Shown: piece by piece, positions 20,943-59,696 of the stretch | Layout: each line of letters opens with the position of its first letter | How positions within the stretch are numbered: the stretch's first letter is position 1 | Assembly: GCA_000310025.1 (NCBI GenBank) | Contig: FN649751.1 | Span: forward strand, 3,898,457-3,962,456 | Length of the DNA stretch: 64,000 nucleotides | Direction: 5' to 3' | Origin: Ectocarpus siliculosus | Taxonomy: Eukaryota; Sar; Phaeophyceae; Ectocarpales; Ectocarpaceae | The notes under the pieces: generated by a model | Database searches by the model: none | Told to the model about the DNA's origin: nothing | What the model saw: only the letters and a program-made list of their open reading frames with translations | Translations under genes and position numbers: made by a program

Positions 20943-23686
20943 CTAGAGCACGGTAAAGTGATCGTGAAGAGTCTTGAGCAGTTGTTTTGAATCCCCGTGC
21001 TCTGGGTATACCTGCATGCAGTATCGAGGGGGAGGGTGTGTGATTGTCGAGCGGATTGAGCATGGTGACAACGTGAACCGTGGATATTTTGTGCGATGGT
21101 GACGTGCCCATCGTGCGCTCCAACCACTGGCGGTCCCAGCGTGACTCGCTTCCCCTTTCTCTCGCACAACCAACCAACAACCAACCAACAGAGAGCACGC
21201 TACGATCGCGAAACACTCGAACGATTGGAGCTTACCTCGAGAGCTTTCACGCACATCATGTGCGCCTCTTGTAGGTCACCGCTCCTATATGCCAAGAGTG
21301 CTGCCAAGCCAGAAGTCGGCGTGGAACGTGTAAGTGAGGGGGGCAAAAGATAGAGGATGTGAACCAGCTCAACGCGTAAACAAGCAATCTCGAGTATGCA
21401 GCGGTTTGACGACGGTCTCTTCGTCACAACGTCCAAACTACACAACCGCAGTTGGTAGGCTACCACTTTATATAACTGCCGATCCAAGCAATGGATGTAC
21501 CCAATCAGAATGTACACATGTGCCACCTTTGTCTATTTTCCACCCATCGTCTCAGTGACCGGAACATATTTCTCACCAGCATTGTAGAAGGGCTCGAACA
21601 AGTACGGCGCCAGTGTTTGCGCCATCTTTAAGTTTGACCTTGCGACTTCGGGGTTCTGAACACGCAAGCAATGTCCAGAAAGATTTATCAAGTTATTGGC
21701 GGCAAGTGAGTGCGCGCACAACAACAGCGGCGCAGACGCATTCCGGGAAACAGACGAGCGACGAGTCCATATAATGCATCACAAAACAACACACCCACGA
21801 CACACATCTCGGGTATAGACGAGTACGTCGAAGTGTTCGACGTATGCAGGCGCATAGCCGTGTGCAGCCGAGAGGGTCAACGAAGTGTCAGACGCCATCA
21901 CGTTGCACTAAGCATTCTCCGCTAAGGCCAGTGTCTGCCTCGTGTCTTTCTGCGTTTCGTGTCGTTTTCTGGGTTCAGACTCTCACGGTTTTTAGGAAGA
22001 TCATATATATCTGTTGTGTGAACCCCCCAACTGCGTAGAACTTTGTCTATCTTATCAAACGATAAGCAAGCACGGATTTTGGTGAAGGTCCTGCGCGAAG
22101 GGCAGAAATTTCGTATTTGCATAGATTACATGAAGTGCAAACAAGGTTGCGACGACAACAACAACCACCAACGACACTCGATCGACCAGGCGTTGGCGCC
22201 TCACCTGTTTTCGAACCTCGAGAGCGGCTAGATTACAGTACGACTCCGCGTGGTTGCTATCCACCGATATCGCGATCTTGAAGGCCTGGGAGTCATTAGA
22301 GGGCGAGACGGACGAGAGCCGGTGACAAGCGAAAATCGAACCATTAAGCGAAAGAGAAACGGTCAACAGTTACCAACAGTGGGAAACGTTTGATTTCGGT
22401 TTCGCGTGCGATATTGATCATAACAACACGAAAATTTTTCAATCGTAACGACTCCATCTGTGGGGCACGATTTCATCCTGATCCTCGGTCGTTGTTTCGA
22501 TTGGGCCTCTGCCAATTGAGCCAGACTGTACTCCTTTCTTGTCGGGGCCATTTATTCTTCACCTGGTACGCTAGCCCTAAGTCTCCGATGCCGATTGCCA
22601 CGTGACCAACATTGTACCTGCCGGGGGAAATGTCGGCGCAGAGAGATTTCAGCGTAGACCGCGATCAAAAGATTTTGTCAAGGCTCCTACTCCCCTTCAT
22701 CCCTCCTTCTCTTCTTCAATCTAGCACGTGGCAAACTACCATGTGAAAGCAGACCTACCTGCGACGTAATATTTTCTCATGTCACCGCAAACTTCGTTTA
22801 AAGCTGCGAGGACTTTACGTGCGCTTGCCCTTTCTACCCACCACACGTCCGCCGCGGTGTCGTCGGAGGCCGCTGCGAGCGCACTCTCGAAACACTTGAG
22901 GGCCATGTCGTACTGCGCGGCGTAGAAGAGGCAGAGACCCAAGTTCTGCCACACCTCTGGGCTGTTTGCCCCCATCTGGAGCAGTCTTCGGTAGTAGCGC
23001 AGGGCCACCTCCGGCTGGTCTGCTTCGGGTATTTGGTGTTTGGTATGAGAAATATGCAATACGTTCAAAGATAGGGGAGGGCTCCTTCGTGACGGAGCAC
23101 CGTCTACACCGTCTACCCGACGTACAAACTCGTTTTCGACCCTGGGAAGGGATCGAGCGTTCAAAGTTTGTGTGTCCAAGCCACTGAGACTTGGAATTGG
23201 GCAGGTCGATTCCGTCTTTGTGTAGCATGGTTGACCGGACGGCAGTCTTAGAAGAAGAAAGTTGCAGGCAGGTGCTACTTGAAGAACTTTTCCGAAGCCA
23301 TGGTTCTTGGAAACCTCCACAAAAAATGGTGTTGCATGAGCCTCTCTCCGCCATACTTAGTCCAAACGTCCTCTTGGTCACAGCACGCCCAATGTTGCTT
23401 ACTCCCCCCCGAACAACCACGCCTGTCCATGGTGCTTACCTCCGTAGAAATGATTGGCGGCCAGGCTTGCGATTGCCTCGACGTTGGAAGCGTCCAGGCG
23501 AAGCACCTGCTCAAGCAACCCCATGTTCCGAACAAAGAAGAGGCGGCCCGAGAGGACAACGGGCGCGGATGTTCTGGGAGGGTGGTGTAAAAGGGGCACA
23601 GTTCGTGCGAGGTGCGCAGGTGCTGTGAATGCTCACCCTCGCCGTCGAACACAGTCGTATTTTGTATTTTCGACAAAATTGTGTTC

Positions 23687-23764
<78 letters not shown>

Positions 23765-26700
23765 GGTCGGTCGGTCTGCCTGTCTGTCTGTCTCAACTCT
23801 CTCTCTCTCTCTCTCTCTTGCCCGCTCGCTGGCCCTCTCGCTCGCACTTACCTTTTTATAGAAGACAGAGGCGTTTTCTCCGTCGTTGAGCAAATCATGT
23901 ACCCTCGCGATGGCCAGCAGGATTCGGCACTCTCTCGGGTGCTGCTCGCTGCGCGTAGCGGACGGGGGAATGGAAATAGACATGCCCTGAAAGGGTTGTA
24001 CGGAGGGGGTAGCTGGAAAAGGAGCCTCTCCTAAATAGTATGTTTAGTGCATATAATCACATGTAGTGTTGGGGGGGACTTCGTTGCATCGTTCTTGTCT
24101 TTTCAAGATCATTGTTGCGTTCCTATTTGGGAATACCTGGAGCCATCACCCACTCCAAGGTTAACGTGAGCCAGAGTTGGCGAGATGCTTTCGGTGCGTT
24201 TTCCCGATGCACATCAGTTATACACAGCACGGCTGGGCTCGTCTGAAAGCCAGGCCAATCGACTGGCGGTTTGGAAGGTAGGTCTTTGTCGTGAGCCGTC
24301 GATGGATGTTAGTGACCAACCCTATGTAGCGTGGAGGCACGCGTTGGTTACCCGGTCCCCGCCAGCAACAGATGACCTCAAGAGCGATCACCTGGCCTTG
24401 AGGAGGAGGTCAAGTGCAGTGTTCGGTAGGTCAAGCCTGGTGTAGACCTGTCGTCGAGCGCATACGTCACCAACAGATGGGGGCACCAGAATGTTGAACG
24501 GATCTTGTTTTAGTTCGCAGCCGTAGTGAAGCGAGTTGCTTGGAGCACTCGGGGAGGGCACAGTTTGATGCCTAACGTCACGAGCGGGGGTATACATAAA
24601 GAAACAATCGATCGCTGGAAATGAGTGCGTCCTTGTGAAAACAGAGTGTAAACTAGGGTCGGGTCGAACTGGGGGGATTGGATTCTGCAAACCTGAGCAG
24701 GGAACGTCTCGTGTGAGGGGTGAGGGGTATAATGGGGACAAGTTGTGGTTCTTCGGCACGACCGCGTCCTTCGATGCACGTTTTCGAGGAAAGAGATATT
24801 TTCGTATGATGTACTACGGAGTATGGACTAATCTATGCCAGCACCGTTCTTCTTAAGCACAACGCCGAGGGCCGTGGACCCCCCCCACCCCGATCCGTAC
24901 CTTGACGAGGTCGAGATAGGTGACAACCATGTCCTGGTCCATGAGAGAAGATTTGAGCTGCCGCTCGGCCTCCCGAAGCATACCTGAATATAATTTCAGT
25001 GGGGGGCGGGGGGCGGTGAATGTCAAAAGTACTCGACAACAGTATGGAATGGACGCTGTACTACGGGCGACCCTTTTAAGAAATCGGGATAGGAGTGGAG
25101 GACCTCCATGGTGATTCTTCGAGCAAAACCCGCCAGTGTAGTGTCATACACTCCGCTCGATCTCGACATCGGGCGATCTGATGCGTCGTTTTCGCGCGTA
25201 CAAGAGGGCCTAAAACAAAAACGAAAACGGGGGCTCCCGACCGCCTGCGAAGATCATCCTCTCTCACCAAGCTTGTAGTAGCACTTTCCTAGCCTCGCCT
25301 TCCACCACCAGTCCTTGAACTCCTTCAAAGTCGTTGCCTCCGCCGCAAGGTCTAGCGCCTGGTGCAGAAGAAGGCGCAAAGAAAAACGTTCAGAACCTTT
25401 TGTACGGACACGCCGCACGCGCAGGATGTTAGACCAACCAAGCCAGAATGAACGGGAGGTTGACACCGAACCTGTGGTTTATCATATCAGAAGCGCGGGA
25501 CTGTGAGAGAATTTTCCACCGTAACATCCACGACATGGTACACCAGTTGCACAGAACGCCGCCTCCAGGTGTGTCTCCCGGCGCGCTTGTCAAATATTCA
25601 CTTATATCGCGGCAACCCTTGTAAATTTCTTCCACAACCCTCTCGCGAGAAGCCAAGCTTGCACGTGCTTCGGCGGTGCTACCATTTATGCTGTGACGAG
25701 GCTCTGCCGGGTCCAACTGATCCCTTCGAAATCTACCAGTTGAGGCATTCTACCGGGTAGAAGCGCATGTTTTTGAAGGCAGCAGCAGCAGCAGCAGCAG
25801 TAGCAGTAGCAGCAGCAGCAGTGTCGTTTTCTCTTGCCACTAGTAGGAGGCACCTTTCGCGGATTCCTCTCTACGAAGACGAGGTAGTCGGCGAGCGCCA
25901 TCGCCAGAGAGGGCCGGCGCGCGTAGCGTCGCAGGTCCAGCCGCGAACTGTCGATGAAGAGCCCGCCCGCCTCCCCGCTACCCGCAGAGAGGGCCATACT
26001 AGCGGTCCCCAGGCGAACCTCCCTGCGGTGGGAGAATTGGTAGGTCGCACAGGGCTTGGCACGAGACGCAAGTTCTGGTTTTGCACACACAGGATTGTTC
26101 TGTTCCTCGTCGAACCATTCAGCTAGCTGTTGTGTACCCCAGTCACGCGTCCTCATTGGACTACATCGCACGAAATTACCGTCGTACCCCCACTCGTAAT
26201 ATTTTCCAGATCCCACCTCCCGTTATACTTCGGCATGATATAACCAGTCTGCCAACTACTTGTAGTCAGGCAGCGGCAGATCTACCTTCCCACCCACGCT
26301 TGCTGCCGGTGTCGTCGCACTCGTAAACTCTGCAGCAGCGATTACAGCTCAAGCCAAGCAAGCATCCATCTCCTTGTCGAACATGTCCTCACCTCCCCAT
26401 GGAAGTCAGGGGCCGAGAGCTTGCCGGCCTAGAGCCGGTCATTGCGGTTGTCAGGTCCATCGCCTGGCCACTCACCGGCCGAACAGTGATGCCGGGCCTC
26501 TGAAACCCGGTCAACGGCCGGCCAGTGCTGGAAAAGGAAACGAAGAACGCATTGTGGCAAAAGAAAACAGAGCGCAGATCCAGAGAGGAACCACACGTTT
26601 AGATTATTAGTTGTGTTTCATATATGGTTCTTGGAAGATGGGTAGGTTCAAGAGAGGAGAAGAGGACAAGATAGGATGAAGTATTTTGAAATGGTTGCGT

Positions 26701-27970
26701 GTCGCCGACACCAAGTTAACCCTTCCACGTGCACCAACAGACTAAACCGTAGACACATCTCCAGCGTGCAACTGCAAGAGCAATCAACGTTCCACTAGGT
26801 CATGTCCAACGCGCCACATGGGGGCAATGATCACTCCCCGCAGAGTAGCAAGTCCGGTGGATTGTTTCGAAAAGGTCTATGCCTGCGCGAAGGCAGGCGC
26901 CACAGCAGCACAACACCCCAGGGCCGTAAACGACGCGGCGCCACGTCACCTAGTCATCGGCCGCATGCTCTGGTTGTGCCCCCCCTTTGTCATGGGACGG
27001 TTGAGGGACGTGCCGGGACGAGGAGCCTCCGCTGTAGCGTTGTCGTCCATGAGGAGCTCGGCCGCACCCTTGGAAACATGGCACGCAAACGTCGTATTCC
27101 GAGAACAGAGGAGGCGAATAACCATCGATGCCTTGGTGCCCACCAAAACGCATTCTTCTTCTGACGCAGCAATATCCTATAAGGATTCTAACAGTACACT
27201 GACAAAGCGGAACAGCGAGAAAGATGTAAGGACGCGATCAAGAACAAACAAACTTCCCGTAAGTACGGCTGCGGGGGTACTGCAAGGTGTTCCTTACGCG
27301 TTTTCCCGGATCACACTTCTTCTCGGCAGAGGAGAGAAGAGGTTGTGGGGCGGAGTCTTGCTATGGTGGGTGGACACAATTAGTTGGGGAGAAATCAATA
27401 AAAGTATCGAAATTTCTTCGCACCTGCTCTTCCATTTCGGTGTCGTCCAGGTACTGTTCCAGCGTCAGAGCACGGCACTTGAGGTACCAGATGGCCTGAG
27501 AGAGCAACCGCCCACGTCTTACATTAGACGAAGCTGCGCACGAGCCACTACGTATTGCATGTAAGCTTCGAGTGCTGGCTACTGCCCGCTGTTGAAGCCC
27601 TACAACAAGCTGCACGTGGATTCAGACCTTCGTTTATCCATAGAATACGTGTGGAAATTCATATTCTGTGTGGATAACTACCGCGACGTATTGAATACGA
27701 CAGAAGCCAATGGATGCGCTTCCTGATTACGTGGATATTTTACACCCTCTTGTTATGGTTGAGGGTAGTGCCTCAAAGTAGCACAAGCAATGTAAAACAC
27801 TTGGGGGTCCAGTACGGTCAATCCAGTGCTTCACACGGCCCGGGTACCTGATCTCGCGGAGTCTTGGACAAGAGGTCGGAGCAAATGTTGACGCAATCGC
27901 TATACTTGCGTCGACGCATCTTGCTCATAGCGTACCTGGCGGTCGTTGCAATAAGACGTGAAGATAGCAT
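20943..27970 (-). CDS. BBS8: BBSome subunit BBS8 (TTC8)
   Basis: This is a tetratricopeptide-repeat subunit of the BBSome. Sixteen exons: 27970-27848, 27495-27424, 27068-26950, 26527-26393, 26022-25854, 25358-25268, 24983-24901, 24447-24392, 23948-23852, 23506-23440, 23019-22842, 22617-22563, 22285-22205, 21655-21577, 21300-21236 and 21011-20943. The total is 1539 nt (512 residues; animal TTC8 about 515-540). Diagnostic segments in order: RRRKYSDCVNIC, AIWYLKCRALT, the repeated PRPGTS/GRPLTGFQRP linker, VRLGTASM, KDWWWKARLGKCYYKLG, EAERQLKSSL, NVEAIASLAANHFYGD, QPEVALRYYRRLLQMG, WQNLGLCLFYAAQYDMAL, ADVWYNVGHVAIGIGDL, NHAESYCNLAALEVRK, and C-terminal LLKTLHDHFTVL. The TPR helices are therefore complete. 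The start could also be the ATG at 27928, but 27970 gives the better alignment. It is divergent from the large helical-repeat gene. Confidence 0.96.
23686..23790. repeat. (CTGT)n / (GACA)n microsatellite in BBS8 intron
   Basis: There are about twenty-five near-perfect CTGT units on the plus strand, changing to CGGT units and then a (CT)n tract up to about 23819. They lie in the intron between the ninth and tenth BBS8 exons. The tract opens long frames on both strands (poly Cys-Leu-Ser-Val or Asp-Arg-Gln-Thr) that are not genes. Confidence 0.95.
25781..25821. repeat. (CAG)n microsatellite in BBS8 intron
   Basis: An imperfect run of CAG/TAG triplets lies in the intron after the fifth BBS8 exon. 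It is outside the coding frame, so no poly-Gln tract results. Confidence 0.85.
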
Positions 27971-28271
27971 CGGCCCGATGAAGATCGTGATCGTCTTTAT
28001 CTGTGAGTAGTTCACACATTGTATATAACGGTATGCGTGCCCCGTTTCTTTCGAGCCGCCCAGTTTGTGGTGCTCTGTTTTATCCCGGAACATTGCGATG
28101 CTTGATTTGGTTCTCGGCTGCACGCACATACTTATTAGGAGGACAAGACAGAGACCAAAGCAGCAGTCGAGGAGGGGATAATGGCGTGGAAGAGAGCACG
28201 AGCTTCGAGTCACATGACCTTCCCCACCACAATTGAAGCAGAGCTACAAGAGGAAATGTCGAGAAGTTGCT
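27971..28271. promoter_or_regulatory. Bidirectional promoter region BBS8 / helical-repeat gene
   Basis: About 300 bases separate the BBS8 start (minus) from the first likely ATG of the large plus-strand gene. Both promoters probably lie here. No specific transcription factor site (for example an X-box for RFX) could be recognised with confidence by eye. The second boundary depends on the tentative first exon. Confidence 0.4.
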
Positions 28272-31200
28272 ATGAAAATGACCATGAAAACGATGGAGTT
28301 GGACGCAAGGAGGATGGCGGTGAAAGCACTCCAAAACGAACTCGAGTGCAAGGTAGCAGCCTTCGTAGACGTGTGCAGTTTTCTTCTGTTGCTACCGTTT
28401 CTGCCTTTGATCCGGAGAATAGGTTAGTCTCCCCCATGCCGCCTCCTCACGGGGTCCCAGTTGATGGCATTTAGAAGTGTTGTTGGTTTTCGCCCGCACT
28501 GAGACTAACGTATTTTCATTGGTCAGCCGGCTAGCGCGGTCGATGCCATAAATAATAATATAAAATACATACATACCGGTATGTATGTAGTGCGCCCGGC
28601 AACCATGACAATATGGTAGTACAGCTTGGCATGAAAAGCATGGGGCAACTTGCGCTTTTGCTTGTATTTCTGTTGGCGAAGGTGTTCTTCAGAGGTTCAA
28701 AAAGTTAAAAAATATATCTATGAAATGAACCAACCGGTTGGATTCTACAACATATCTGTACCCAATCCCATGAGATTACAGGTGTATTGGCCGGCTTCAA
28801 GAAATTTGAATGTTTGAATATTTCGCTTTGACGACGGTAGACTGTAGACTATGCATGCTTTTAAAGCATTTGCAAGAGTTCGAATGTATGTGCACACTGT
28901 ATAGTGTGAGCTAGAGTGCTAAGAGAGTGGCGGGAAGAGGAGGCGTGTGAGGTAGTTACGACCGTGAGTCCTTGTACAACAGTAGGCTGCCGTACATTCT
29001 CTACAGGACTAGTCTATTGTACGTGAGGTGCTGGGTGTATTTGGCCCACGATTCGAGACTCCGACAGCTCTCTACACCGCAGCTCTAGACCGGCACAGTC
29101 TAGCTTATCGTTTAACCGCTACTGTGAATATATTTTGCTAGATGATTTTATAATCTTCGGTCCATTTTGGACAGCAGCAGTGTTGACAGTTGACAGCGAT
29201 CTTGTCCGTTCGGTGCGATCTTTCGCTGACAAGTCTCCTTCTCGCAGTACTCACCACATTGGGTCCAATCCATTGGGCACACCCACCGCGCCAAGACTCT
29301 GCTCGTGAGGGGCCATCGGCGGTTCCTTTTGTTCTATGCAGGTGACGTCAATGTTTCGAAGAGGAGAGATGCAGCGCAGTGTGAGCCGGCCGGGGACCAG
29401 CGGGACAGCTCGGTAATTGGGCCGCATAGTCTACACCGCAAAACTTCCGAATGGTAACATATCGAAACGTTGCCCCGCGTTTTTCCGCCGCGTCGTCGCA
29501 TCCCTGGAGTGCAACTCTCCTCCGCATGTGTCGTGCTGTACCCTGGTTCCAGTGGGTACGATGAGCCTAGCAACAACTACTGCAACTCCGCAAGGCCGAA
29601 AGCGAAGACGGCATCAACGTCGTAGACCGGCGGCCGATGACAACTCGTCGGACACGCCGGGCGCCATGCTCCCGCGGGTCGCAACCGCACCACCGGCGGA
29701 CCCCGCTCGGTCACCACGATGCGGTGCCGTTGCGACGGGGACACGAGCAAAAACAGCAGGAACAGAAAATCCACGCCCGTCGTCCCCAGAATTTGCTGAT
29801 ACCGCAGACCTGGATGCACAAATATCCACGCTGGCGTCGATCAGGGCCTACGGGTACGGGTCTGTGCCCGGAACCCCTTTACGGCGTGCGAGAGGTCGTC
29901 ACGCTGTACATGGGGCACGGGCGTTGGCGACAGCAAGCGGCACGGCGGTAGAGATCGATAAGACGATAGGTAGCGGTATCATTGGTTGCAGCACTCCAAC
30001 AGGGACTGCGAAGGTGGGCAGAGGAGAACATCAAACCAAGACAAGCGCCAGGGGTGATTCCGCAAGGACGAATCGAGAGCCATGGATGGGTCCGCTGGAT
30101 CGTGGGGTGAGTCCACAGACCTTGTGGGGGGTAGAGGGCCAAACGAAACCTCCATGACAATAAGCATTTCTCATGGACTAGGTTTAGTGAAGAGCACAGT
30201 ACAGCTCTGTCATGTTTTATTCGATCGTTCGGGTGACACTACAAGGTCGAAGTCGTGTACTGCAATATTTTTCCATGCCCCCCGCCGGTGGGACGGGTGT
30301 ATGATTGGGTGTTTTATTGCGTGTTTTCTTCGCGATTGTCGAGCCTTTTGTAACCTACATGTATGCAGATAGGTTACGTTTGCTTTTGTTCTTGTTCTTT
30401 AAGAGTAACAGGATTTCGTAAGCATAGCTTTTTATTTGTGTCCCATATGCATTAAACATATGGCAAACTGTAAGACCACGGAAAAGCCAACAGTAACCAA
30501 ATGCGCTGCCGTCTTAGCATACCGTCCAACATCTTCTCGTATACCATTGATCGGCTTGCCTGAACGAGGACCAACAGAACGGCGCCGGTACCAAAGAGGT
30601 GGACCCATCCACCATTGAGCGCCAGGAGTTAAGGAGAACAAAGGCTCGAAGACTAGCGTCCGTAAAAGGACGTTGCCTTCTTTCACAAGTGGTACGTGAA
30701 GTCCGTTCGGGTCGACAGTAACAACATCATATTGGCCGTTACTCCCTCCGTTCCTTTCGTACGCTCGGCTTTGCCTGGTGTCTGGTACCCACCAATACCT
30801 TCAACTGCAGCAGACGTCCTCTACAACCTTGAGCAGAGCGCATACCACACTCAGCACCTTGATTTCGGAAGCAGGTTGAACGCATTTCCTCTGGATGAGC
30901 TACACCCTTCGTAATCTAAAACAGTGCTCTCTCGCGATTCAGAGTCGCGTCCTGCATCGGCGGGACCTAAACACCACCTCACAGCTACTAGAGTCGGCGC
31001 GAGCTGAGTTTCGCGCCGCTGGTGACGCGAGCGGAGCATCCGAAGTGGACGAAACGCTCATCAAGATAAAAGCCGACTTTGTGATGGAGGCAATGGAGAT
31101 GGCACGCAAGGTTAGTGGAGGTGGCCGTGGGGGAGCTGCGTTGCGAAATGTGCCCTCAAAAGCAAACGGCTCAGCAGTGGGTGCTTCATGCAGCGTTCAG

Positions 31201-34200
31201 CAGAAGGCTGTGTGCAGTGCGTAGTCAACTATCGGCACTCCCCGCTGTCCTGCAAGGACTACCGAGGAATAAGGCCCTCTAGTCAGGGCAACCAAGAAAA
31301 ATGACTGGTGGCGAAGGCGTGATTAAGGGGGTGCAGAAACGGGGTTGTGACGCTGGCTCTTTTTTCCCATACTTCAATCCTATACAAGGAAAGAAAACAA
31401 CCTTCTCGCCATGGTTAGGTGGCGCATTCTATTGTCATCAGTAGAGGACACTATGAAGAGGCGTCGTGCGTGCTGGCACGTTCGGGTTTGCTGCTGGAGC
31501 TGAAATATCGAAGGCCGCAGCAGCCCCTAAAAACGGCCCGAAATCTGCGCCTGAACCAAGCGGCATCCAACATCTGTCACAGCCGTGCTCACCACCACGG
31601 ACCGTAAAACCCTGCGGGTTTACAGCATTAGCTGATGTGCCTCTTCATGATGTCCTCTACTGATGCCGATAGAATGCGCCACGTAACCCTCAATACTGAC
31701 CTTGTTTGAGCGCCTTCCGTTTTGACTATTGACTAGAATTTAGAATGGTGTGAAATTTTATCTTGACTTCAAAGGAGGCGCGTGGAGGTAGACGCGTGAA
31801 TTGTATGTCTTGTGAGCAGCCTCTGCTGCCGCCCTGAGCGAGAATCAACGATTTCTGTTTTTCGTGAGGCCTTCCGACTGGTCTGGTGTGTCTGTTATGC
31901 AATTTCTGGTGCTCTTGCGTTTGTTTTCAAAATTAGTCAACATCAAATTCTTCTTCTGCACCCGCTTAAGGCGTACAGTCCAAAAGAAGGGCGCGGTGAA
32001 AGCACAGGAAACGCATGCTTCCACAAGCCGGGCAATACTAATACTCGCCCCATACACGTTGTATCTGCTTATGATCGCCGTGCACCAGCGAACTACTTGA
32101 CCGAAAGGAATGTCAACCCTTTGTCGCTGAGCTTGCGCACCGTGTTGCTTTTCGCGGTTTGCAGTCCCGAGACTACGATCGCCTGCAAGAGCTGATGTTC
32201 GAGGCAGTTCACTACTTCGCTGTCCTGGCACGCCACGGAAAAATCAACCGACACGACTCTCTAGGCGCAAGGTGTGTACGCACGTCACCTGCGTATGAAT
32301 GTGTGATTTGGATTGGCACGGTTGACCTCCTCGATATTTATCTTTTACATGGGTATTGGGTTTGAATGTCCACACGAAGCATGCAACCGACTTGCAACAA
32401 GCGAAGCTACTTCACGGAGCTTTCAGCACAAGAGCGGACAGGTCGAGACACCCAATCTCCCCACCCTGCCCATTGTCACCCCTACCGAACATGCTGCCAC
32501 CCATCGAAGCGACCGCCGAGACGCAGGCAAGAGAACATACGAGCGCTTGCGACAACCCCGCCGTCTCTGCCGCGAGTATGCCCTGGAAGACGGTCGCAGT
32601 TCCCGGGAGGCGGCGGCGGCACTTGCGAAGAAGCGTAAGTACGCCCAGGCGCGATTGCGGCTGGACGATGCTCGTCGGTGCTTTGACTGGGCGGGAGATG
32701 CGCAGGAAGACCTGCGGAAGCTTACCAGCGTTGAGTCTGAAGTCGAGGTGATGATGACAGCAGTTTATAGCCATCCGATCGTTGTATTAGAGCGATTTTT
32801 CTTCATCGCAGATGTACTTGCTATTTGCCGTAGACATGGGACGGATGACGTTTCCTATGGACCTACAGGAGAGGGAGCATGGTTGTGGTCGTGCTTTGCA
32901 GGTTCTACCGAACCGTGAAACAATCTGACGTAAGTGAAGAGTGAATTTCCCGTAACTGCATTGGCTACGTTTACGCGCATGCACCAATGAGAACCCGTTA
33001 GTTTCTTCCGTAGCATCAAGGTGCAAAATGCCATCGTTATGGAAATGCGGTTGTCTCAGTCGTTAGGACTCCTGTCATACTCGCCGCCGTAGGATCTTGT
33101 GCGTATACGTGTGCCTTTTTTTCGGTACGTCTCTGATTCAAATGTTTTTCATTTCCTGCTTTTTCGTCGTTGGTTTTGCGTGCCCCCCGCCCACTGGAAG
33201 ATGCGGGAAAACGCCACCTGCGGGGATCGCCTGACGGAGAGTGTCGCGAGCAAGCTGCAGTTTCTAACGCCGAAGGACTACTCAGGACTGTTCTCGGAGC
33301 TGTCCCAGGCCGCGACGGCATACGAGGTCGCCAAGGATCAAGACGGGAAAAAGGTATGCGGCGGTTCGGAAGCATGCATTCATCGATGCAACCGTCATGT
33401 GTTCTGCCTTGCAGGTTTCGGCAAGTAACACACGGTGCCCACCGAGGCTCGAGCTAACGTGTATTGCGATGCCCCAGCCATTCCCATTTCCCCTCTTATC
33501 GTGCATCGTGTGTGTTTGCTTCTGTGCCTTCGCTTCCGCCCCTGCGGTTCATGCGAAAATAGGTGGTGTGCATAGTGAGGGCCGCGTTGGAGCTTGTGCT
33601 GTCGGCCGAGCAGCGGTGGATGCAAGCAACCGACGCGCTCAAGCAGCGGAACTACGCGTCCGCGTCGCAGCTCATGAAAGAAACCAAGCGCTTCATCTCC
33701 GACGCGACGAAAGGGTGTGTTTGGGTTCTACAGAGCAAACGAGTCATACGAGTTAAATGCCCAATTTCGATGAGATACGACACTTATTGACGGATTTTTT
33801 ATAGCTATTTTGTTCCCTTTTCCTCGGTGTTGGCTGTTTGTCCTTGAGAGATCGTCCATGACGTAAGTCCCTTTGCCCCATTCGCATGCTGTGGGGATGG
33901 TGTGCCTGCCTTTCTGCGTGGTTGTGTATGCTGCCGGAAAGCCTCCCCTTCGTGAGCCCGTCGCTGGCGCGCGCGGGAAAGGTCCTGTCGCCTCCCGGTG
34001 GTCTGGACCCAGTCGACATCGTGGCGGAGCTGGCGGCCCTAGACGGCCTGAAGGCCCACACCAAATCCATTCGGGCCCTTGAACAGGCGAGACCCATACA
34101 AGTGTGACCGAATGGGGTGTTTTCGAAATTTAGACTGGCTCGGTGTCGTCTCTCGTTCGGCTCAACGCGCTTCTGCGGACACATGAGAGAGGGTTCGCGG

Positions 34201-37200
34201 GATGCCGGTGGTGGCAAGAAAGGACACCGGGGAAGTGTTGTCAAGTGTGAAGCTTAAGCTTTCGTGCAAATAACTGTTGCTGTCTGTGTACACCAACCGT
34301 GTCGTTCTTTACCTACCAGAAATAACTCTTCAGATACACCTGCGATATCGGTAACGGCGAGCCTATCGCACATGAGCAACCATATTATTTGTTTTGGATA
34401 TGGGTGAAGTAGCGAGTATAGGTAACTTCAGCAGGGGAATGACAACACATACACACATACCCCCCCCGTTCCCCGTCCCCGACTCGAAAACCGAACCTGA
34501 CGCAGGGCATGCTAGACAAAGCGCAGCAGCTGAACGTGAGCGCCCGAGAGGTGTTTGAGTTTACCGCACGCTGCTGCAGTACAACCAGCAGGTGTCGGAG
34601 CGGCGATGGCGGCGGCGAGAGCAGTAGTAGCGTCCGTTGCTGCAGCAGCCCTTCCTCAGCGACCGGAGGAGGTACCACCGCTGGTGCTGGTGCTGCCGCT
34701 AGTATTGGCGATGACAAGAAAAATGACTATGACGTCACGGGGTTTTCTCTGTCCGTCGAAGAGCTGAACGAGGGCGAGGCGTTGCTCGTCAAGGTCCGTC
34801 GCTCCACTTCGGCCCCCGCCAGCCCGGATAATTGCAGCGCCAAGCCGAAGCCAAGGATGGCTGTTCACCTGGGCGTTCGCCATCGAGTTGAGGTAGGACG
34901 TCGTCGTACGTGGTTTTGTATGTTCTTGATGGGGGCTACGTGCCCCGGAGAGGTGCTGCTGTCGCTTGCTCAAGATCATCGAATTGCTCCTGTACGTTTA
35001 TGGTGGGAATTGTTTTGATGGGGATCGTCGCATATACTCACAAAATATGTAGCGATGTGTTTGTTCATACGCAGCAATTTATTTATTCATACCAACGGGA
35101 GCACAAAGGTTACCTCATTCAGCGCCTGTTGGTTGCACATCTCGCACCTTTCTTCATCAGTATGCCCCAAACATGCACGGCATACTACTCACATCGCTCC
35201 GCTTCAGCTCTCTCACCGTGATGCATATCCTAATGATTCGTTGAACGTCTCCTCTGCTAATGTTTCTCGACCTCCCGAAACCCAAAGGACCTCCTGGACG
35301 ACGTGTCCGAGACAGAAGACATCATCACCCGCAACAAGGCTCTCGAGCGCGGCGACAAGCTCATGGCCGCCTTTTGGGCCTCCTTCGGAGTAAGCTCGGC
35401 ACAATCCGCTACAGCCGCTGCAGCCGCAACGGCAATGGTGTCTCCGAGCACGGAGACAGGCCAGCGCGACGTTCGTTCTACCACCGTGGACACAAGAGGC
35501 GCCACCATGGCGGGCGTCGTCACCGTTCGCATGACTGCTACTACAGCAAGTCACGCCACAAGTGCCAACAAGAACACCACCGGTGTAGCTAGCAAAGGCG
35601 AAATGGGCAGAGGTGCAAAGGGGACGGAAGGGGGCGAACAACAGCTGCCGGGACCCGGCGGAGCGCTGAGCCCGGAGACTGCTTCGAGGTGCCTTGGGCT
35701 CCTAGCGGAGGCAAAAGAGGCGTACGACGGGCAAGGCTTCGCGCAGCAGGCGGACGGGGCGGCCAGGTAACAAGACGTTAACGAAGGTTTCATGCCATAC
35801 ATCGATGGACGGGCGGGCGGGAGGGCGGGCGGACCTACGGACGGGAGTGCTTACCCATGTGCCCCGCAGCCATACGTGACCATTTCTGTTGACAGCACAA
35901 GTTGTATGCATAGTTGATTTGTTTGTGATTGTGACGTTGGTTGGGAAAAGGTACCGGTCTGGCGAACCTATTGACTAATAAAAACATATCTACCGCGATC
36001 TCGACCCCTCCCCTCCCGGCAACAAGGTTGAGAGCAGGGCTAGTCGCCGATCGCTGTCTTGCCAAAGCTTCCAGCCTTGCTCCACCAGCGGCCGCCACCT
36101 CTACCGCTTTCGCCACCACCGCCATGGCCACAGCCGCAGCCACTGCACAACGCAGCGAAACAGGAACAAATCCTGCCATTGGGGTCGACGGCGAGCAAAG
36201 GCTGGCTCCGGTGATGGGGGATGGCGGCGTTGGGGTGGGTGGTGGCGGCGGTAGGGAGAGAGACTTTGAGGCAGCCAGAGCGGCGGTAAAGGAAGCCGAG
36301 GAAAACTACGAAACAGCTGGTAACGAGATGGGTGCACTGGTGGCGAGGAGGATGGAGATGTCGCTCAGGGGCGACGAGGCAATGGTTTCGATAGACACGC
36401 TTCTCGAGAAAAGGTGAAACTACTTTTGTTGGTAGATGGGTGCTATTGATCTGTTGATTTGCAGGTTTATAGTGGAGGAAATTTGCTGGTTCGCCTATAG
36501 CACAAGCAGCAACAGCAACAACCATAACAACAAGTACAGTTTCAGAGTGTCGTCTTACTAAAGGTGCTTCAGCGTAGAATTTAGGCTAAGTTTTTGGTAG
36601 CCCATGCATGATGCGACGTGTCCTGGCGAAACACCTGGTAGATTGAAAAAAGTAAGGGTACGCTGCCGAAACGGCATGAGCCGGAAAGGGGTACACGTTC
36701 ATGTGTGATGGATCGACCGTGGCCAGCAACTCTCGTACCTATGTTTCTTCGGAAATTGTCTTTTTTCACGCGGCACAAAAGACGTTTGTCATCTTTACTT
36801 GGTTTCTTTTCCGATGCCCCTTTCAAAACACAAACCGCACGTTTAGGGCTTTCGTTGCCGTTGTGGAATGCCTCGATCAAGCGAGGCGTCTCTACACGGC
36901 CGCAGGGCCGCAAGGGTTAGAGGGGCTGGCCCGCACCCGAGACCCCCTGGGCCTGGTGAAGCAGGTGGCCATGCGCGACGGACAACGACTTAAGCACGAA
37001 GCCATCAGAATGCTCAGGCAAGGGACACCGCGAATAAACGTGATTGCCAAGACCCTTTCTTAGTGTCACTAGGGACACGTTATCTTCTTGACATAGTCTG
37101 GTTGTAGTCGTGTACCACATGGTGTAGGGTCCACCCGCCAGCAAGCGGCAATTCAGGATTTCTAGAGGCTCGAGGGCCGAGGCTTACCACGCAAGCGTTC

Positions 37201-40200
37201 AGGGAGTTTCCGTACAATCCAACAGGTTCATCATATGCTTGTTCGATTCGAATGCCACAGGCCTAGGAAAGGCCACCGAAGGCCAACAAAGGAGGAGATC
37301 CTCAATCCATGCCCAAAGCAAACGGGCTGCTCGCCGTAGACACAGCGACGCCGCCGCAGGAATTTCTGCTTCCAGGAGGGCCGATACTAATATAGGCAAT
37401 TGTTGGGTTTGTCACCATCGCCTATGTAGCAACGACGCATGGATTAACGCCTTGGCACTTCAATTTTACTGTCGGACGCGAAGCAATGAGCGCTGTTCGT
37501 TTGCAGGCTCGTGCCGCACGTGTCTTCCCTCGATGCCCTTCCGGTCAAAGCAACGCATCGTTGCGTGGTATGGTACCTCGGTGTGTGGTGGATCATCATA
37601 TTCGGCGTACTATGCGTCCTACATGTCTGTTCTGTCAGAGGCGGAGACGTGGAGGCGTCGAGAACACTGTGCGAGCAAGCTCAAAGCTGTTTTTCCTTCG
37701 TCGACCGAGAGGCCTTGGCTGATGCAACCGCCGACGTCTACGCTGCGGTGCGGGTGGTGCTTGCTGTGTTGCGTGGATACCGTGTGTGAACATGATTGGA
37801 GGAGGAGTTTTTTTTTGCCGTCGCCGTCGTCGTCGTTGGCGTTGCTTTTCCTGATATTCTTGGCGATGCTCTACCTAGAAGAGACCAGATTGTGCACGCC
37901 GTGTCCGTGGGCATCAAGCTGTGAGGATGTCCTGCTATCCAGCGCAGCGATAGAAACACGTCGCCTACACTAGGTTGGGGAAAGAACAACGATGTTGGAG
38001 CCTGTGAGAAGCGCGGGTAAAACAATTCTAAAACCCAGACCCAAGCGATGTCGGAGCCTGTGAGAAGCGTGAGTAAGACAGTTTCTAAACCCCAGACCCA
38101 AAAGTGTGTCAACTACCAAACGTCTCTGGAGGACAGGGATCGGCAAGGTACGAAATAATCGTGTTCCGTTCATATCCTCTGGTATCGACAGGTGTCTATC
38201 AAGATTCGATTGTTGCGGCAATTCGAACTAAGGAAGATAAATTACTCTAAGAATCTAGGCTTGTTCAAAACCTGGCTCATGCAGATTCACATGGTGACAA
38301 GGCTCGCCTCCGGCGATGCCGCCGTGGCGGCGGCCGAAGCGGCCTTCGCGGAAGGGGCGAGCGACAACGCGGCGCAATTTCTGCGGGAAGCGAAATCCTT
38401 CTACCACCGTGCACAGGTTAGAACCAGGATGCCAAGGGAAGGAGCGAGGGAAGGCTTCGTGCTCCCTACATCCTGTAGGTAGTTGGTTGTTGGCGCTTGA
38501 ACACGGAGCGAGGAAAATTAGCCCATGTTTGTTGATGTTGTCGATTGTACATGTGTTGTCTGCATTAAGAGCAGGCGTGGAAGAGGAACCAAACGTGCCA
38601 CCTTTTCCCGAGGATGTGAAATCCCGTGCTTCTACCGTCATGGGCACGCATGAGATCGTCGAGGGGCACAGAAAAGCTGTAAGCTATGCTCGAACATGGG
38701 TAGGAGAACGAGGGCATCGGATAGGTGTGGAGGCAGAGGGGCGGTGGCGATACAAGAGGAAATTCGTTTCAGTTTCTCAACTTCTCATTTGACCTCTTGT
38801 CATTCAGTATTGGCAAACGCTACAACGAGAGCGATTGGGGCCCTCCAGCGGTGGACGACTCTTTGGATTGTTTTCGCCACCCGAGAGGGCACTTGGAAGG
38901 AGGTGGTTCTAGACTTGACGTGGGGGAACATTAATGCGGCTTGGAAGTAATCGGCGATTGGCTTTGCTCGGTGCCTTCATGATGGAGTGGGTGACTGACC
39001 GCCACAGTTCTATGCCCGGTCACACTCACCCTTGGTTTGGATCCTCTTCTTCTGCTGTGCCGCTCTTGCTATCTCTGCGCTTGGTGTGCTGCGACTTTCG
39101 GAAAAAACAACCAACAACGAAACAGTTGTCATATGAGGACTTGGTGGACCAGGTCACGACCCTCCTAGAAGAACGCCCTGGCGATCTCGAGGCGGCTCGG
39201 AACGCGATGGAGCTACAAGACAACATCAATGCGATCTATGACAGGTGATCAATAGGGGTGGCAAATTTACAGACCAAAAGGCACTAACATCAGGGGGGAA
39301 GGCAGAGGGTGGGCCAGAAGCAAAGAAAAGAAGGAGTACGTGCAGGCATGAACTCCGACCTTCCACGCATAATGCACCGCTCAATACATCGCCTGTGGCA
39401 TGTGCGTTGCTTCTACGCCGCTCGTTGTTCCTGCACCACCTCAGTTCAAATGCATACGCACTACTACTGTAGCCTGACCTCATCATACATACAATCTCTC
39501 GCCAAATCATCAACCGCTTCCGCTACTAAAATCTACCGGCACTTCCACCACTACCACCAGCCGACGGGATGGCCAGAGAGCTGTCTACGTGGAGTTGCGC
39601 CTGGATTGTCTTGCCGCAGATACCTCCCTGGAAAACCTTGCCCAGGTAAAAAGGCCTTGACACCCCCAATAAAGCCGTGGGCATTCTCCCAACTGTTGTT
39701 CTTCCTTTGCTGTGAACGAATACTGAATATTGCACTTATCATCTAACTGGCGGTATTTCAAGTGAACGTGAGGGATGTGGTATTTCGTCAGATGTCAGAT
39801 TTAGCCCGGCCGCATCTGTGGGGGAACCCGCCACACAAACGAATGAACTCACTCACCCTCGCCTAGGCAGCAACTCTAGCGCTTTGGAGTCCTCGCTGAT
39901 GACACCAGTTTATTCGCGCGTGGGTGACAGACAGCTGTCGGCTCTCACGACTGTAGTACAAGGGCGAACATTAGCATTCGTTGCGGTGAGCGTTGGCAGC
40001 TTGCATCTACAAAGGACTCAAACGAACACAACAGCACCCTACAAACATGAACACCTCTCCGCACTACGACCACCCATAACCGTCCGCCCGTCCGTCCGTC
40101 CGCTCCGCCCGCCCGACCGCTCACCCACACGCTCAAACGCACACACGCGAAGGTGGTGGACCACGAGCAGTTCGAAGACGCCCGCACGCTGCTCTCCGCC

Positions 40201-43200
40201 GCAGCGCAGGTCTACGAACGCTCCGCCGACAAGGCCCGACTGTCGAAGGTGGGCAATATATCGTCCCTCGTCAGCCTAATCGAGAGATCGTCGAGGGCTC
40301 TGGCTGAGGGCCGCTACGCCGACGCCGAAGGCCTAGTCGCGGAGAGCTTGGTCGTCCGCGCCGCTCTCGCCGTCGAGCGGCCGCTCTGCCTCCGCCCGCC
40401 GGACTGCGCGCTGTGCCAGGGCGGGGAGAACGGCGCCAAGACGGCCGTGCTCCTGCGGGTGCGATCCGCCGGCGAAGCCGACCGAGCTTCCGCTCTCGAC
40501 CTTCTCGAACGGAAACACTTCGAGGCCGCCGAGCGAGCGGCCTTCTCCGCCCGCGAGAGGTTGATGTGGTGGGCTGACAACCACGAAGACAGCGGTGACA
40601 GTGGCGGCGGCGACAGCGAAGCAGAAGGAGAGCGTCGCCTCGAGCGCGACCGGCGCCAAGCCGTCGTCCGGGCGGCGGAGGAGCTCACGACGAGCGTAGC
40701 TGCGGCCGTGGGGCAAGCAAGGGCCGAGGGGCTCATGGAAAAAGGGAGGGGGCTCAAGGCGATGGGGGACTACGTCGCGGCGGTGAAGACTCTACGGTCG
40801 GCGGCGGAGCTCTTCCACGACGCGGGACTCGCGCAAGAAGCGTTGGTGACGCGCACCGAGGCCGCCCGGACACAGGCGGAGGCGCTTCTGCTGACGTCTG
40901 TCGAGCTGCACGGCGAAGGCAACTTCGAGGCCATCGCGGAGCATCTTGATAGAGCAGAAGCTCTACTGCTCGACGCTCAGAAAGAGGTCGCCGGGAGCAC
41001 CTTGGTTGCGGCCGACGGTACGACGATCACCTCAACAGCAACAGCACAGCTGTCTTTGGTAGGACTTCCTAGCACTAGCGGCGACGTTGACATTGGTCGC
41101 GCTATTACTGTTGACAGCGGTAAAAAGTGCGGTGGGAGTGATGTTGGAAGTCATGTCCTGCCAGGGATAGAGGACGATCAGGATGGGGCGTGGGCACAAT
41201 GCCACATTCTCGATGACCTTGTCAACTTACGATCTCGCGTGGCCGGGGATATCGTCATGCGTGGCGTAGCACCCGCGCTCGACGCGCGAGAATACGACGA
41301 AGGGCTGCGGCTGTTGCAAGAGGCTGAAGCCCACTACACCACCATCAAGGCGGGAAGATGGATGACGTCGGTTGCCGCCGCCGTCGCTGTCGCTGCGGGC
41401 AAGGAGAATTCCTTGTCGTCACCATCGTCCACGCCCAAGGAGCTGGTGACGAAACGGGCGGCTCACGACGGCGATCAACTGCGCGCGAAGGCGGCCACGG
41501 CGATTCAAAAGGAGAAGAACCCCGTCAAGGCGCGGGAGTTGCTCTCGGGGGCGGAGGCATGCATGGCTTGGGCCGGCGTCGATCCGTTCGCTGCCGGAGC
41601 GGCGGCGGTTTCCAAGGACATCAACGTGTTCGAGAGCCGCGAGGCAGGGGATGAGATCTGCAAGGGGCTGATCGGCCTGCTGCGGGAGAGGGAGTTCGAA
41701 CGCGGGAAGGGCATCCTAGAAGAGGCCCTCAGCAAGTACCGCCAGGTGAAGGATAGGTTGCATGGGCCCAGGAGTCGTTCGAAAACGTGTAAATTGCAAC
41801 AACCACCAGAAATACCACAGAAAATGGATGCACGCTCCTCCAATCGTGATCACCGCTATATCTGCTAGTCATCTACTAGTCATCTACCATGCGACTGCTG
41901 TTGGTGGCCTCAAAATAGGTACGTCGTTTCGCCGCCGTGCCGCTGAAAACTGCCATCCGCATCCACACCCAAATTGCAAGCAGGGCGACGCCTTCAAACA
42001 GATAGCTGACACGCGGGCAATCATGTTCTGCGTCGAGCGGGAGTCCGAATTGTGTGCTGGCGTCATCTCTGCCATAAGCGCACGCGACCCGGTTGCGGTG
42101 AGTTTGGTCCGCCACCGTGCACGACCGCCGAAGAAGAATATATTGCACAGGGACTGGGAAACTCATGGCCTATTGTTAGTTGTTGCAATTCTCATCCGTG
42201 TTATTATTCCGGCAATTTTTGGTATCCGAATCCTGGACGCGACGTCGAGACCATGGTATCTCTGGGCTTGACAATCCGAAGTAAAATTATTGCAGGCGCT
42301 CAAGATGCTCGAAGAAGCTCGTCCGGTGTTCCAGATAGCTGCGGAACTGAGGTCGGCAGTGTTGCAGGAGGCCGCCGAGCTCATCGGGATGAAGCACCAG
42401 CACATTACAATATTAAGCACGCTCTGCCGAGCGTGGATGAACTGTGTGAACGGGTGAGCTGACGCGACAGACAGTCCCACGAAGTACTGCATGGAAACCT
42501 GGCGTCGACTGCCAAGTCGAGTAGTAGTGAGATCCAATGAACCCTCAACCACACCCACCCACCTACCCATTTCCTTCCCCGTTTCCCTACGAATCTCAAC
42601 CGTGCTTCGATTTATCAGTGTTTTTCCAGCTTCCAGCGATGAAGACGGCCCCCCTAACCCAGCAGGCGTCTTAGACAGGGCCATGTCTGACCTTCGCACG
42701 CTCGTGGCCTCTGGGGTGTCTGTGTTGGACGTTCCCCTCGACCTCTTCCGAGAGTCATGCGACAGCGTGTCCGCAGGCATTGTGAAAACACGGACAACCC
42801 CATCGCAGGAGGCATCGGTCGCGCAGGCGGCGGACGCAGAGTCGTCGACATCGGAGTCCGAGGCGGTAGCTGCAATGTCTACTGCTCTCGGTGATGCGAG
42901 AGTGGGTGGTGGTGGGGATGACGTATCGGACACTGTTGATGAGACCGGTACCGCACGGGACGGCAGTGTAAATAGCGCTCAATGCGTTTCACCAACAGAA
43001 GACGCAGCAGGCGGCACCACAGACGGTTCAATCAGTGGGAACACGGACAGGGCGCCATTGAATGGAGACGCCGCTGTTGTCATCGACGACGATACGATTG
43101 ATACGGTTCAGCAAGGGCAAGCTTCAGATTCTCAAGGAATAGAGAGCAGGGAGCCGAAAGAGGGAGCGGGGGGTGAGACGGACTGGTCATCGGGTGAGAC

Positions 43201-45334
43201 CGACGAAAACGGTGTTGATGTTCGTGTAGCGGACAATCACTCAGTGAAACCAACTCCGATCACCGAAGTTACTGGGCCTGATATCGCCGACAACGTCACA
43301 GTGGAGTCGGGCAGCGGCAGCGTTGCGAAATCTATGCCACCACCTCCTTCGCCTCCTTCTGCTGTCGACCGTGACCACCTTCCGTCTGATGGTGTGCCAG
43401 TTGACCCTGACAAGGACAGCTGTTCGTTGTCTACGCTCGGCAGTCTGGGGGATAACGATGCACTGTCACTCTCTTCGTCGACCACGGACAGAACTCTTCA
43501 ATCTGCCGACAACAACGAAGACACGTCGAGAGGGGGGGGGGAGGGGTCACAAGACGTCGTGGCGGGATTCGAGGCCAACGGTGGCGGCGGCGATGACGAC
43601 GACGACGGTGGCAGTGGAAGCTCCGAGGGCGTCACCGGGGAGCTACTCTCAAACAGTACTGGCACAGAGCAAGCAGACAGGCACTTGAAGGGGCGGGGCA
43701 ACAACGCGACAGACAGCAGGTCGCTGGCCAACAACCTAGCGGTTGCAGTCGAAGGTGATGCTGCAGACAGAAGAAACAGCTCCAAACCGATATCGACCAA
43801 GGCTCCGGAAGGACCCGCCTCGACCAACTCTGCAGACCCTGACGCTACAAGCGCCGACAGCCTGGGGGCTCAATTCCCTTCTCGCCAGTCGGCTCCTACT
43901 CCGGCAAGCGGCTTTGCAAACGGCGACCCGATTGGTGATAGACGTCCTTCAGGAAGCCTTCAAGAAGCTGCACAGGTGGAGGGGGCAAGCGCGGTTGATG
44001 ACGAGGGAGGCTTCGCGACGGTGGGGACTGCCAACCAAGGGGGAAGCTCCAGGGATCATCTCGAAAGTCATGCGGCTGCAGCGGCAGGAGTGGAGACACT
44101 ATCTGGCGGGGACGAAGACGACGTGAACTACGAACTTGACAGCGACTTCAGCGGCGATAGTGATTCGCCGGCGGTGGCCGGCTCAAGAAGTAGCGATCAA
44201 GTTTCACCGCCCCCGACAGATCATGTCGCGGAGGCGAACAACATGGACGAAGGCGGCAGCGATAGCCAGTGCATCAGCAGAGCGACAGATGACGGCATTG
44301 ACTCTCTTCCCCTTAGCCAAACCTCATCTGCGAAGGTCGTTGCTGTTGAGCCCGATGTTGTTCATCCTGCCGCAGACTACGAGTCGGATTACCCCGACGA
44401 CATCGACAAGGTCGACGAGAACGATGACGGCGTCCAAAGCGACAGCAGCGAAAGTAGCAGGCGTAGCTCCACCGAAGAAGAGGACCGCAGCCATAGCAGC
44501 GAAGGCAGCAGCGATAGATCCTCAAGCGACAGCAGCAGCAGAAGCAGCAGCAGCAGCCATCACTTGTCTGACTCCTACTCAGCAGAAGACGCAGACTCCG
44601 TCCACGACGGCTCTACCGCATCATCGCTGACTCAAACGGCGGTGAAAGCTACGCGCAGTTCACCACCACAAGGGGAAAAATCGACTAACGAAGACTTTGA
44701 TGGAGAAAACGGCGACGATGACTATAGTCTTGGCAATAGTTCCGGAGATTCGGCAAGCAGCTCAGAGTTGGAGAAACGTACAGACGCTGCAATTTCCAAG
44801 AGTGCAGACCGTGTTGAACAAGCCGAGCATTGTGCGTCCTCTCCAACGGACAACCCCCCTGGCACCATAAACAACGACGACAGCAGCTTGATCGAATCGA
44901 ATGTCATTGACTCGCCAGCCGACAATGGCACCGAGGGGGCTGAGAACGAGAATCGATGCGAATCTGTGCATGGTGCAATGTCGGAATATGCCACTCGTGA
45001 GGCCCTCACAAATGGGGGTGGCGATGGCTCCGTGGGGAAAGTTCCCACCGATTTATTCCATGATGAAAGTAGTGGCGGAGGTGGCGGAGGTGGCGGAGGT
45101 GGTGGCGGTGGCGGCGACGGGGAGCCCAAAGGCACGGCTACGGATGAACCCTCACCGGCAGCTTTGCCTTCGGCGACAGGGGCGGTTGCGGCCAACGAGA
45201 TGCAGTTTGATGATCATCACGTCAACGACGACAGTGTTGATCAAGGACAACAACATCAACAAGATAAAGGGGAGGAGCCGAGCGACCTCTACGACATTGA
45301 CGATCACGGACTTTCCTCCTCGGACGACGATTGA
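28272..45334 (+). CDS. Giant helical-repeat protein with acidic Ser/Asp tail, unknown
   Basis: This family was not recognised. Exons read with matching phases are 30925-31110, 32165-32271, 32600-32747, 33201-33353, 33563-33714, 33942-34101, 34506-34793, 35288-35766, 36027-36413, 36847-37017 (GC donor), 37639-37747, 38285-38416, 39126-39244, 39561-39645, 40153-41745, 41984-42097, 42296-42453 and 42637-45334. The 5' exons 28272-28352, 29342-29412 and about 29553-30106 are tentative, and the part at 38575-38680 does not close in phase. The protein is roughly 2,500 residues. Most exons encode one or more degenerate helix pairs ending in a pattern like LLxxAxxxYxxAGD: LLESARAEFRAAGD, RLDDARRCFDWAGD, LDQARRLYTAAG, FLREAKSFYHRA, TLRSAAELFHDAG, MLEEARPVFQIAA. 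This resembles TPR-like solenoids but is not canonical TPR. The last exon is a disordered acidic tail. It could be two genes, since continuity rests on phase and repeat similarity. Confidence 0.65.
31413..31688. mobile_element. MITE-like element with ~50-bp terminal inverted repeats
   Basis: The left end (31413-31462, containing GGTGGCGCATTCTATTG, CATCAGTAGAGGACA and ATGAAGAGGC) is matched in reverse complement by the right end (31639-31688). The element is about 276 bases with no coding capacity, which fits a non-autonomous DNA transposon. A target-site duplication could not be defined because the repeat extends to GGTTA/TAACC at the edges. It lies in an intron of the large helical-repeat gene. 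Confidence 0.8.
37988..38104. repeat. Two-copy ~57-bp tandem duplication
   Basis: Two diverged copies lie in direct order: GGAGCCTGTGAGAAGCG ... CCCAGACCCAA occurs at about 37996-38044 and again at about 38054-38101. The repeat is intronic (between the exons ending at 37747 and starting at 38285). Confidence 0.8.
40153..41745 (+). other. Long exon: densest helical-repeat block
   Basis: This is a single 1593-nt exon (531 residues) of the giant gene, from acceptor AAG|GTG to donor CAG|GTGAAG, both phase 0. It contains at least five successive repeat units (for example FEDARTLLSAAAQVYERSAD, AVKTLRSAAELFHDAG, IAEHLDRAEALLLDAQKE, GLRLLQEAEAHYTTIK, GKGILEEALSKYRQVK). A Ser/Gly/Glu-rich linker and a Thr/Ser/Gly-rich linker (around 41010-41160) separate some of them. 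The repeats alternate Leu/Ala-rich amphipathic helices, consistent with an alpha solenoid. Confidence 0.8.
42637..45334 (+). other. Terminal exon: Ser/Asp/Glu-rich acidic disordered tail
   Basis: This is one 2698-nt exon encoding about 899 residues to the stop at 45334. After a short helical start (GVLDRAMSDLRTLVASGVSV...LFRESCDSVSAG) the composition becomes Ser, Asp, Glu, Gly and Thr with almost no aromatic residues. It includes a Ser/Arg cluster at about 44440-44590 and a Gly run at about 45074-45115, and ends in DLYDIDDHGLSSSDDD. Many SD/SE sites fit casein-kinase-2-type phosphorylation (inference). The long open frame, with no stop over 2.7 kb and clear bias at the protein level, argues that it is really coding. 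Confidence 0.8.
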
Positions 45335-55303: not shown

Positions 55304-55370
<67 letters not shown>

Positions 55371-58300: not shown

Positions 58301-59696
58301 TGCTCAACGAGGAGTCGGAGGCGAACGTGTTGCGTCAGGTTGGTGGTGTCGTAGTGTTTGTTGTTGGTAGAGGTGGTAAGGCTGTGGCCATTGCAGTAGT
58401 GGTGGTGGTCGTGGTCGTGGTCATTGTTGTTGTGGTGATTTTGTATGCCCCTATTACCTACCGTACTATATTTGGTGCTCGACGAGCTCGTTATTACCCC
58501 CCCGGTTCCCTTTCCCCCCCTTCTCCCTCGCCCCAGTTCGCTCACCCCCGCGTCCGCCTCTGCCCGTCTCTCATCCTCTCCCCTCGCACTCGTGTTTCCT
58601 TCATTTCTCCCCCCCCCCCCCCTCCTCTCTTTCTTGCAGACTCTCTTTTCTTTCGAGGCGGATGCCACCTCGCTTGTGCCGGACATGTTCTCCCTGGGCT
58701 TCGAGGACGAGTACGAGGAGCTCGAGGCAGACCTGCAGGAATTTTCGGAGAAGTTTGCCGACTCTCCCGCCGCCCAGGTCAGCTAGCTGACTGTAGCTGG
58801 TCCCCTCACTTCCCCCAAGTCTCTTGGAGTCTCGGCCGGAGCGTTGCGGCTAGCTGCATCGTTTTCTTCTGAAGACCGGAGGCAGACCAGATAGAAGCAT
58901 ATTTTTTGTAGTCGTTGCGCCGCAGTAGTCCTTGACGGACGATCGGTGGGCGCTTGGTTGCTGGAGGCGGACCTACCGGGAAGAATTTGGAGGCTGAATT
59001 CTATCGTGTCCGTCTTTCTGCCTGGCCCTTGCCTGGTTTGTCTGACGCTGCATCGGTTGCTTTATTCTCTCGTTCTCTCTCTGGGTGTGCCATGTTTATT
59101 GCCTCTCTGCCGTGCCAATACATCAAACGTGCGGGCGTGTGCTTCTTTTATACCACCAGCACCAGCCAGTTCCAATATCATCATCTCAGTCTGTCCCCGC
59201 CCTCCTTCCGCCGTACTAGCAGTCTTATCCGGTGGTTGGCACGTAGTATTTCCGCTCCCCGTCCCAAAGTCGTGTTTTGGTGGGATGATTGGTCGCTGTA
59301 GGAAGCATGGCCTGGCCGTAAAGTTTAAGGGGAGTGGCTGGCTAAGCTTATGGTCTCCCTTGTTTCGCCCGCCCTTCGCTGTCCGATATATGGCCTCTTG
59401 GCTCTCGACGGACGCACGTACCACCTCGATGCATCCTTTCTCTCCGGCCCATGATAGATAGTGACTGCTAATCTCAGTTGATACCCCGCATAGCGCGAAG
59501 AGGGAGCGGAGGATCCCAGAATATCTGTCGTTGATTTCTATTGACTTGCGGACCCCTCGGGGCCAGTTTATTTGAGTGTACCTTTTTAGGGTAAGTTAAC
59601 CTGTGACCACGGGAATCGACCGCGTCGAGTGGTGGATCAGTACGGACATACGAAGGTACTGGGTAGAGAGAGATCGGAACGGTTTTTAATGTGAAG

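Follow-up and report, generated by a model that had tools for sequence, protein, structure and literature searches.

Large solenoid scaffolds have organising roles in membrane traffic, in cilia and in gene regulation. Here we describe a gene on the forward strand of a 64,000-nucleotide stretch of Ectocarpus siliculosus DNA (contig FN649751.1, positions 3,898,457 to 3,962,456; hereafter the window), in a genome of 189 Mb and 492 contigs, whose product we read with moderate confidence as a divergent TPR/MIT-like alpha-solenoid scaffold of about 18 units with an acidic tail and a probable basic, disordered start. TPR alpha-solenoids (e.g., BBS8, STIP1 and SNAP) appear similar in their antiparallel helix pairs, GDY-like turn, small helix B residues and local fold. 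However, the period here is ~55 instead of 34 residues, helix A is long, inserts and an acidic tail are present, and the Pfam TPR matches of 15 units are all below cut-off. MIT domains (VPS4, Spartin and Calpain-7) have a possibly comparable local three-helix arrangement, whereas our model has a two-helix period. The helical fold of PTS lactose/cellobiose IIA, a bacterial sugar-transport domain, showed a recurrent weak resemblance in sequence and fold with scores below cut-off, probably reflecting similar helix packing only.

Brown algae also spread a repeat protein over many exons in their ROCO-LRR genes (and NB-TPR genes), whose repeat exons are shuffled. Every shuffled LRR exon of the ROCO genes is 72 bp long and in phase 2 (PMC11378527). 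At our locus, in contrast, neither exon length nor phase nor intron position is constant, and a shuffling of repeat-bearing exons like that of those immune-receptor candidates was rejected because of this lack of uniformity.

A large multi-exon gene on the forward strand

The model has 18 core exons, from 30943-31110 through 42637-45334, which join into 7,209 nt encoding 2,402 residues, with consistent phases, one open frame throughout and a sole stop at the end (Table 1). Exons were retained after their splice sites and phase had been checked by hand; automatic gene finding called too many tiny exons away from the strong signals, and we abandoned training the gene finder on 20 neighbouring stretches, since several of them were masked or repeat-like. 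When the exon set was slid across all 49,609 offsets that fit the window, the true position was the only one to keep it open, and the 2 draws that fit among 20,000 random ones were one and the same offset. In leave-one-out codon scoring, where each exon was judged by the codon usage of the others, the modelled frame ranked first of three in 17 of 18 exons, all but 42296-42453 (-0.023 in the modelled frame vs +0.037), and all 17 introns scored negative in every frame. Intron phases are mixed (10 in phase 0, 6 in phase 2 and 1 in phase 1). The intron at 37018, between exons 36847-37017 and 37639-37753, is of the GC-AG type (donor TCAG/gcaagg), and this donor is needed because splicing from the GT at 37040 instead would disrupt the phase. 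The locus is a real, large multi-exon gene, as the original prediction had proposed. Its exon count, 18 in the core and one or two more that are uncertain, is not clearly above twenty.

A start at ATG 28272, where the prediction had placed it, is doubtful, as ATG 28181 and ATG 29561 are alternatives. The first of these lies in the same stretch as ATG 28272 and in a different frame, and the codon scores of 28181-28422 (-0.05 in frame A and -0.10 in frame B) are both ambiguous; this stretch may be 5′ untranslated region instead of coding. Judged from its translation, donor and codon usage, 29561-30106 is likely an additional N-terminal coding exon with a probably disordered product: the best of three frames across 29553-30105 scored +0.01, above the introns and below the core exons. 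The core with this exon only would encode 2,584 residues. As a separate observation, intron positions 37990-38101 hold a ~56-base unit in two tandem copies.

Table 1. Features of the gene and its BBSome neighbours (positions in the window).
Feature	Position	Strand	Basis
Candidate first exon, frame A (MAWKRARASSH...AFDPEN, donor ATAG/gttagt)	28181..28422	+	translation, donor
Likely N-terminal coding exon, basic, own ATG 29561, donor GGG/gtgagt, phase 0	29561..30106	+	translation, splice, codon score
Exon, first helical unit	30943..31110	+	splice/phase model, codon score
Exon, helical unit	32165..32271	+	splice/phase model, codon score
Exon, helical unit	32600..32747	+	splice/phase model, codon score
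Exon, helical unit	33201..33353	+	splice/phase model, codon score
Exon, helical unit	33563..33716	+	splice/phase model, codon score
Exon, helical	34013..34101	+	splice/phase model, codon score
Exon, short helical pieces and low-complexity insert	34506..34892	+	splice/phase model, codon score
Exon, low-complexity insert flanked by helical pieces	35288..35766	+	splice/phase model, codon score
Exon, Gly/Ala-rich insert then helical unit	36075..36413	+	splice/phase model, codon score
Exon, helical unit, GC donor	36847..37017	+	splice/phase model, codon score
Exon, helical unit	37639..37753	+	splice/phase model, codon score
Exon, helical unit	38285..38416	+	splice/phase model, codon score
Exon, helical	39126..39244	+	splice/phase model, codon score
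Exon, helical	39561..39645	+	splice/phase model, codon score
531-residue exon, 7 of 18 anchors	40153..41745	+	splice/phase model, codon score, folding
Exon, helical	41984..42097	+	splice/phase model, codon score
Exon, last helical unit	42296..42453	+	splice/phase model; modelled frame not top codon score
Last exon, 899 residues, acidic tail, stop 45332-45334	42637..45334	+	splice/phase model, composition, codon score
BBS8 (TTC8), head-to-head neighbour, approximate extent	20946..27970	-	similarity to TTC8
BBS9 (PTHB1)	about 4417-9978	-	Pfam and solved PTHB1 match

Predicted helical hairpins, profile searches and the acidic tail

The first ~1,503 core residues consist of divergent helical units and disordered low-complexity inserts. 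The last 899 residues are acidic and without repeats (Ser 16%, Asp 13%, Gly 12%), and this tail is probably disordered. The giant repeat protein predicted at ~2,500 residues is supported, but ~900 of the 2,402 residues carry no repeats. We placed 18 helix-B anchors by eye. Of the 17 intervals between them, 11 measure 46-62 residues, and the remaining six (76, 92, 93, 123, 153 and 311) cover inserts or units that were not assignable. The first 1,503 residues contain 19 copies of a loose motif (two hydrophobic residues, x2, A/S/T, x3, aromatic or hydrophobic), whereas 500 shuffles averaged 6.3 and never exceeded 14. This agrees with the LLxxAxxxY-like pattern first noticed, although the enrichment is partly circular because the motif was derived from this very sequence. 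Summed exon-to-exon self-similarity reached z 8.0 over residue shuffles and z 4.4 over residue-class-preserving shuffles (60 each). The top exon pair scored 70, against values of up to 76 and 69 in individual shuffled sets; therefore, the sum over pairs stands out and no single pair does. Since intron positions are scattered relative to the unit and the phases are mixed, the proposed correspondence of single units to exons in matching phase is only a loose one.

Folding a two-unit piece (the last 110 residues of exon 40153-41745), with sister units as the alignment, gave long-short helical hairpins at pLDDT 92, with a two-helix period of 55 residues and a long helix A. Neither this model nor the anchor spacing has the 34-residue period of TPR. 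From this piece we infer that hairpins may stack into an alpha solenoid over the whole length.

Pfam and other profile searches of the units and longer pieces returned no family above cut-off. Among 15 single units, TPR_2 matched one (0.04) and TPR_14 one (0.041), both below cut-off; longer pieces matched no TPR model, and besides these weak TPR matches, neither ankyrin nor any other Pfam repeat family appeared in the units or longer pieces. NCBIfam matches were all far below cut-off (best SufU, 0.022). With hhalign, the 15-unit profile aligned weakly to TPR (15.4% over 19 columns), though better than 30 column-shuffled controls; the TPR alignment used kept 7 of 9 rows and replaced a small first version with badly aligned rows. 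In the unit profile, the GDY-like turn and small helix B residues appear to fall in TPR register. Pattern scanning detected nothing in viral contigs and 22 matches in prokaryote genomes, but tblastn confirmed none of these. A literature search judged by titles returned nothing on this protein. The sequence ties the protein to no named family, as originally predicted for a protein that is not canonical TPR, but the repeats are probably not of a wholly undescribed kind because their unit profile and predicted fold are TPR/MIT-like.

The BBS8 neighbourhood and alternative readings

The gene is divergent to BBS8, whose query, stitched from open frames, matched TTC8 of a solved BBSome (E 1.9e-119). 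This confirms the predicted head-to-head arrangement, although the gap of about 300 bases depends on the start codon: it is 211, 302 or 1,591 bases from the putative BBS8 ATG at 27970 for ATG 28181, 28272 or 29561, respectively. BBS9, in the same window, has Pfam PTHB1 hairpin and N-terminal matches (9.6e-13 and 1.4e-8) and E 3e-70 to solved PTHB1. Both neighbours would suit a flagellum- or BBSome-linked scaffold that shares a promoter and is co-expressed with BBS8, sorting cargo in swimming cells. Divergent Ectocarpus pairs closer than 600 bp have a chromatin domain and histone marks in common (PMC7784034), and Ectocarpus sp. 7 has a flagellar ('turquoise') co-expression module with BBSome as an enriched term (PMC12629598). 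Some lineages, diatoms among them, reportedly have no BBSome (PMC5654045). However, the first of these sources also places 61.7% of the genes that flank surveyed intergenic regions adjacent to transcription start sites in divergent pairs. It gives 409 bp as their median gap and finds no correlation of transcript levels between partners less than 600 bp apart (Pearson 0.054). As close divergent pairs are common and uncorrelated, the head-to-head arrangement carries little weight, and the proposed co-regulation with BBS8 is not supported. Searching PDB chains with phmmer using an 867-residue query and the 531-residue exon, in a library that includes BBSome chains, gave unrelated proteins at best (E 0.83 and 0.86); the tail and exons 41984-42453 were left out, and distant homology is possible. 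The suggested flagellar or trafficking role is therefore unsupported on the flagellar side, and we consider such a flagellum- or BBSome-linked scaffold unlikely.

Two BBSome subunits, BBS9 and BBS8, ~11 kb apart make a curious arrangement that may be due to chance, and other coding-looking stretches lie between them. A piece at 14052-14123 on the forward strand, also between the two, has a translation that we take to resemble ribosomal protein S25. Elsewhere in the window, exon pieces of an automatic model at 50169-58777 (forward strand) match the Sey1 three-helix bundle (E 0.0064) and the RHD3 GTPase (E 0.047) below cut-off, and this locus perhaps encodes a dynamin-like GTPase.

The two-unit fold resembles TPR, MIT and PTS-IIA helices with no decisive match, so the repeats could be a series of MIT-like three-helix modules of the membrane-trafficking, ESCRT type instead of TPR-like hairpins. 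This is rather improbable: TPR rows tie with MIT rows in the fold comparison, the model repeats every two helices with one of them long, and Pfam MIT was absent from the matches of the 15 units and larger pieces (E <= 1 or E <= 10, within HMMER filters). A cytoskeleton-binding helical bundle protein of the vinculin, talin or catenin kind is very unlikely. The 531-residue exon was also folded alone. Foldseek and VIA on a poor single-sequence model returned transporters, vinculin-like and designed proteins and were treated as uninformative, and the lack of a named fold in structural lists is no evidence for a new one. It is likewise very unlikely that a lineage-restricted giant scaffold with its own class of ~55-residue long-short hairpins acts in BBSome or flagellar trafficking, with BBS9, BBS8 and the scaffold as a functional gene cluster.

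Proposed architecture and implications

As a divergent TPR/MIT-like alpha-solenoid scaffold, the protein would begin with a probably basic, disordered segment ahead of the repeats, followed by ~18 recognisable ~55-residue long-short hairpins with low-complexity loops between them, which would stack along the whole protein into one solenoid. By analogy with TPR-type solenoids, its groove may hold partner helices or peptides, and the ~900-residue acidic, Ser-rich tail, possibly phosphorylated, could be a flexible arm for basic partners.

Scaffolds with worn repeats easily escape profile searches. Other proteomes can be queried with the 15-unit profile and with the corrected gene model. If the protein were located in the flagellum, which is speculation, it would represent a new component of a trafficking system.
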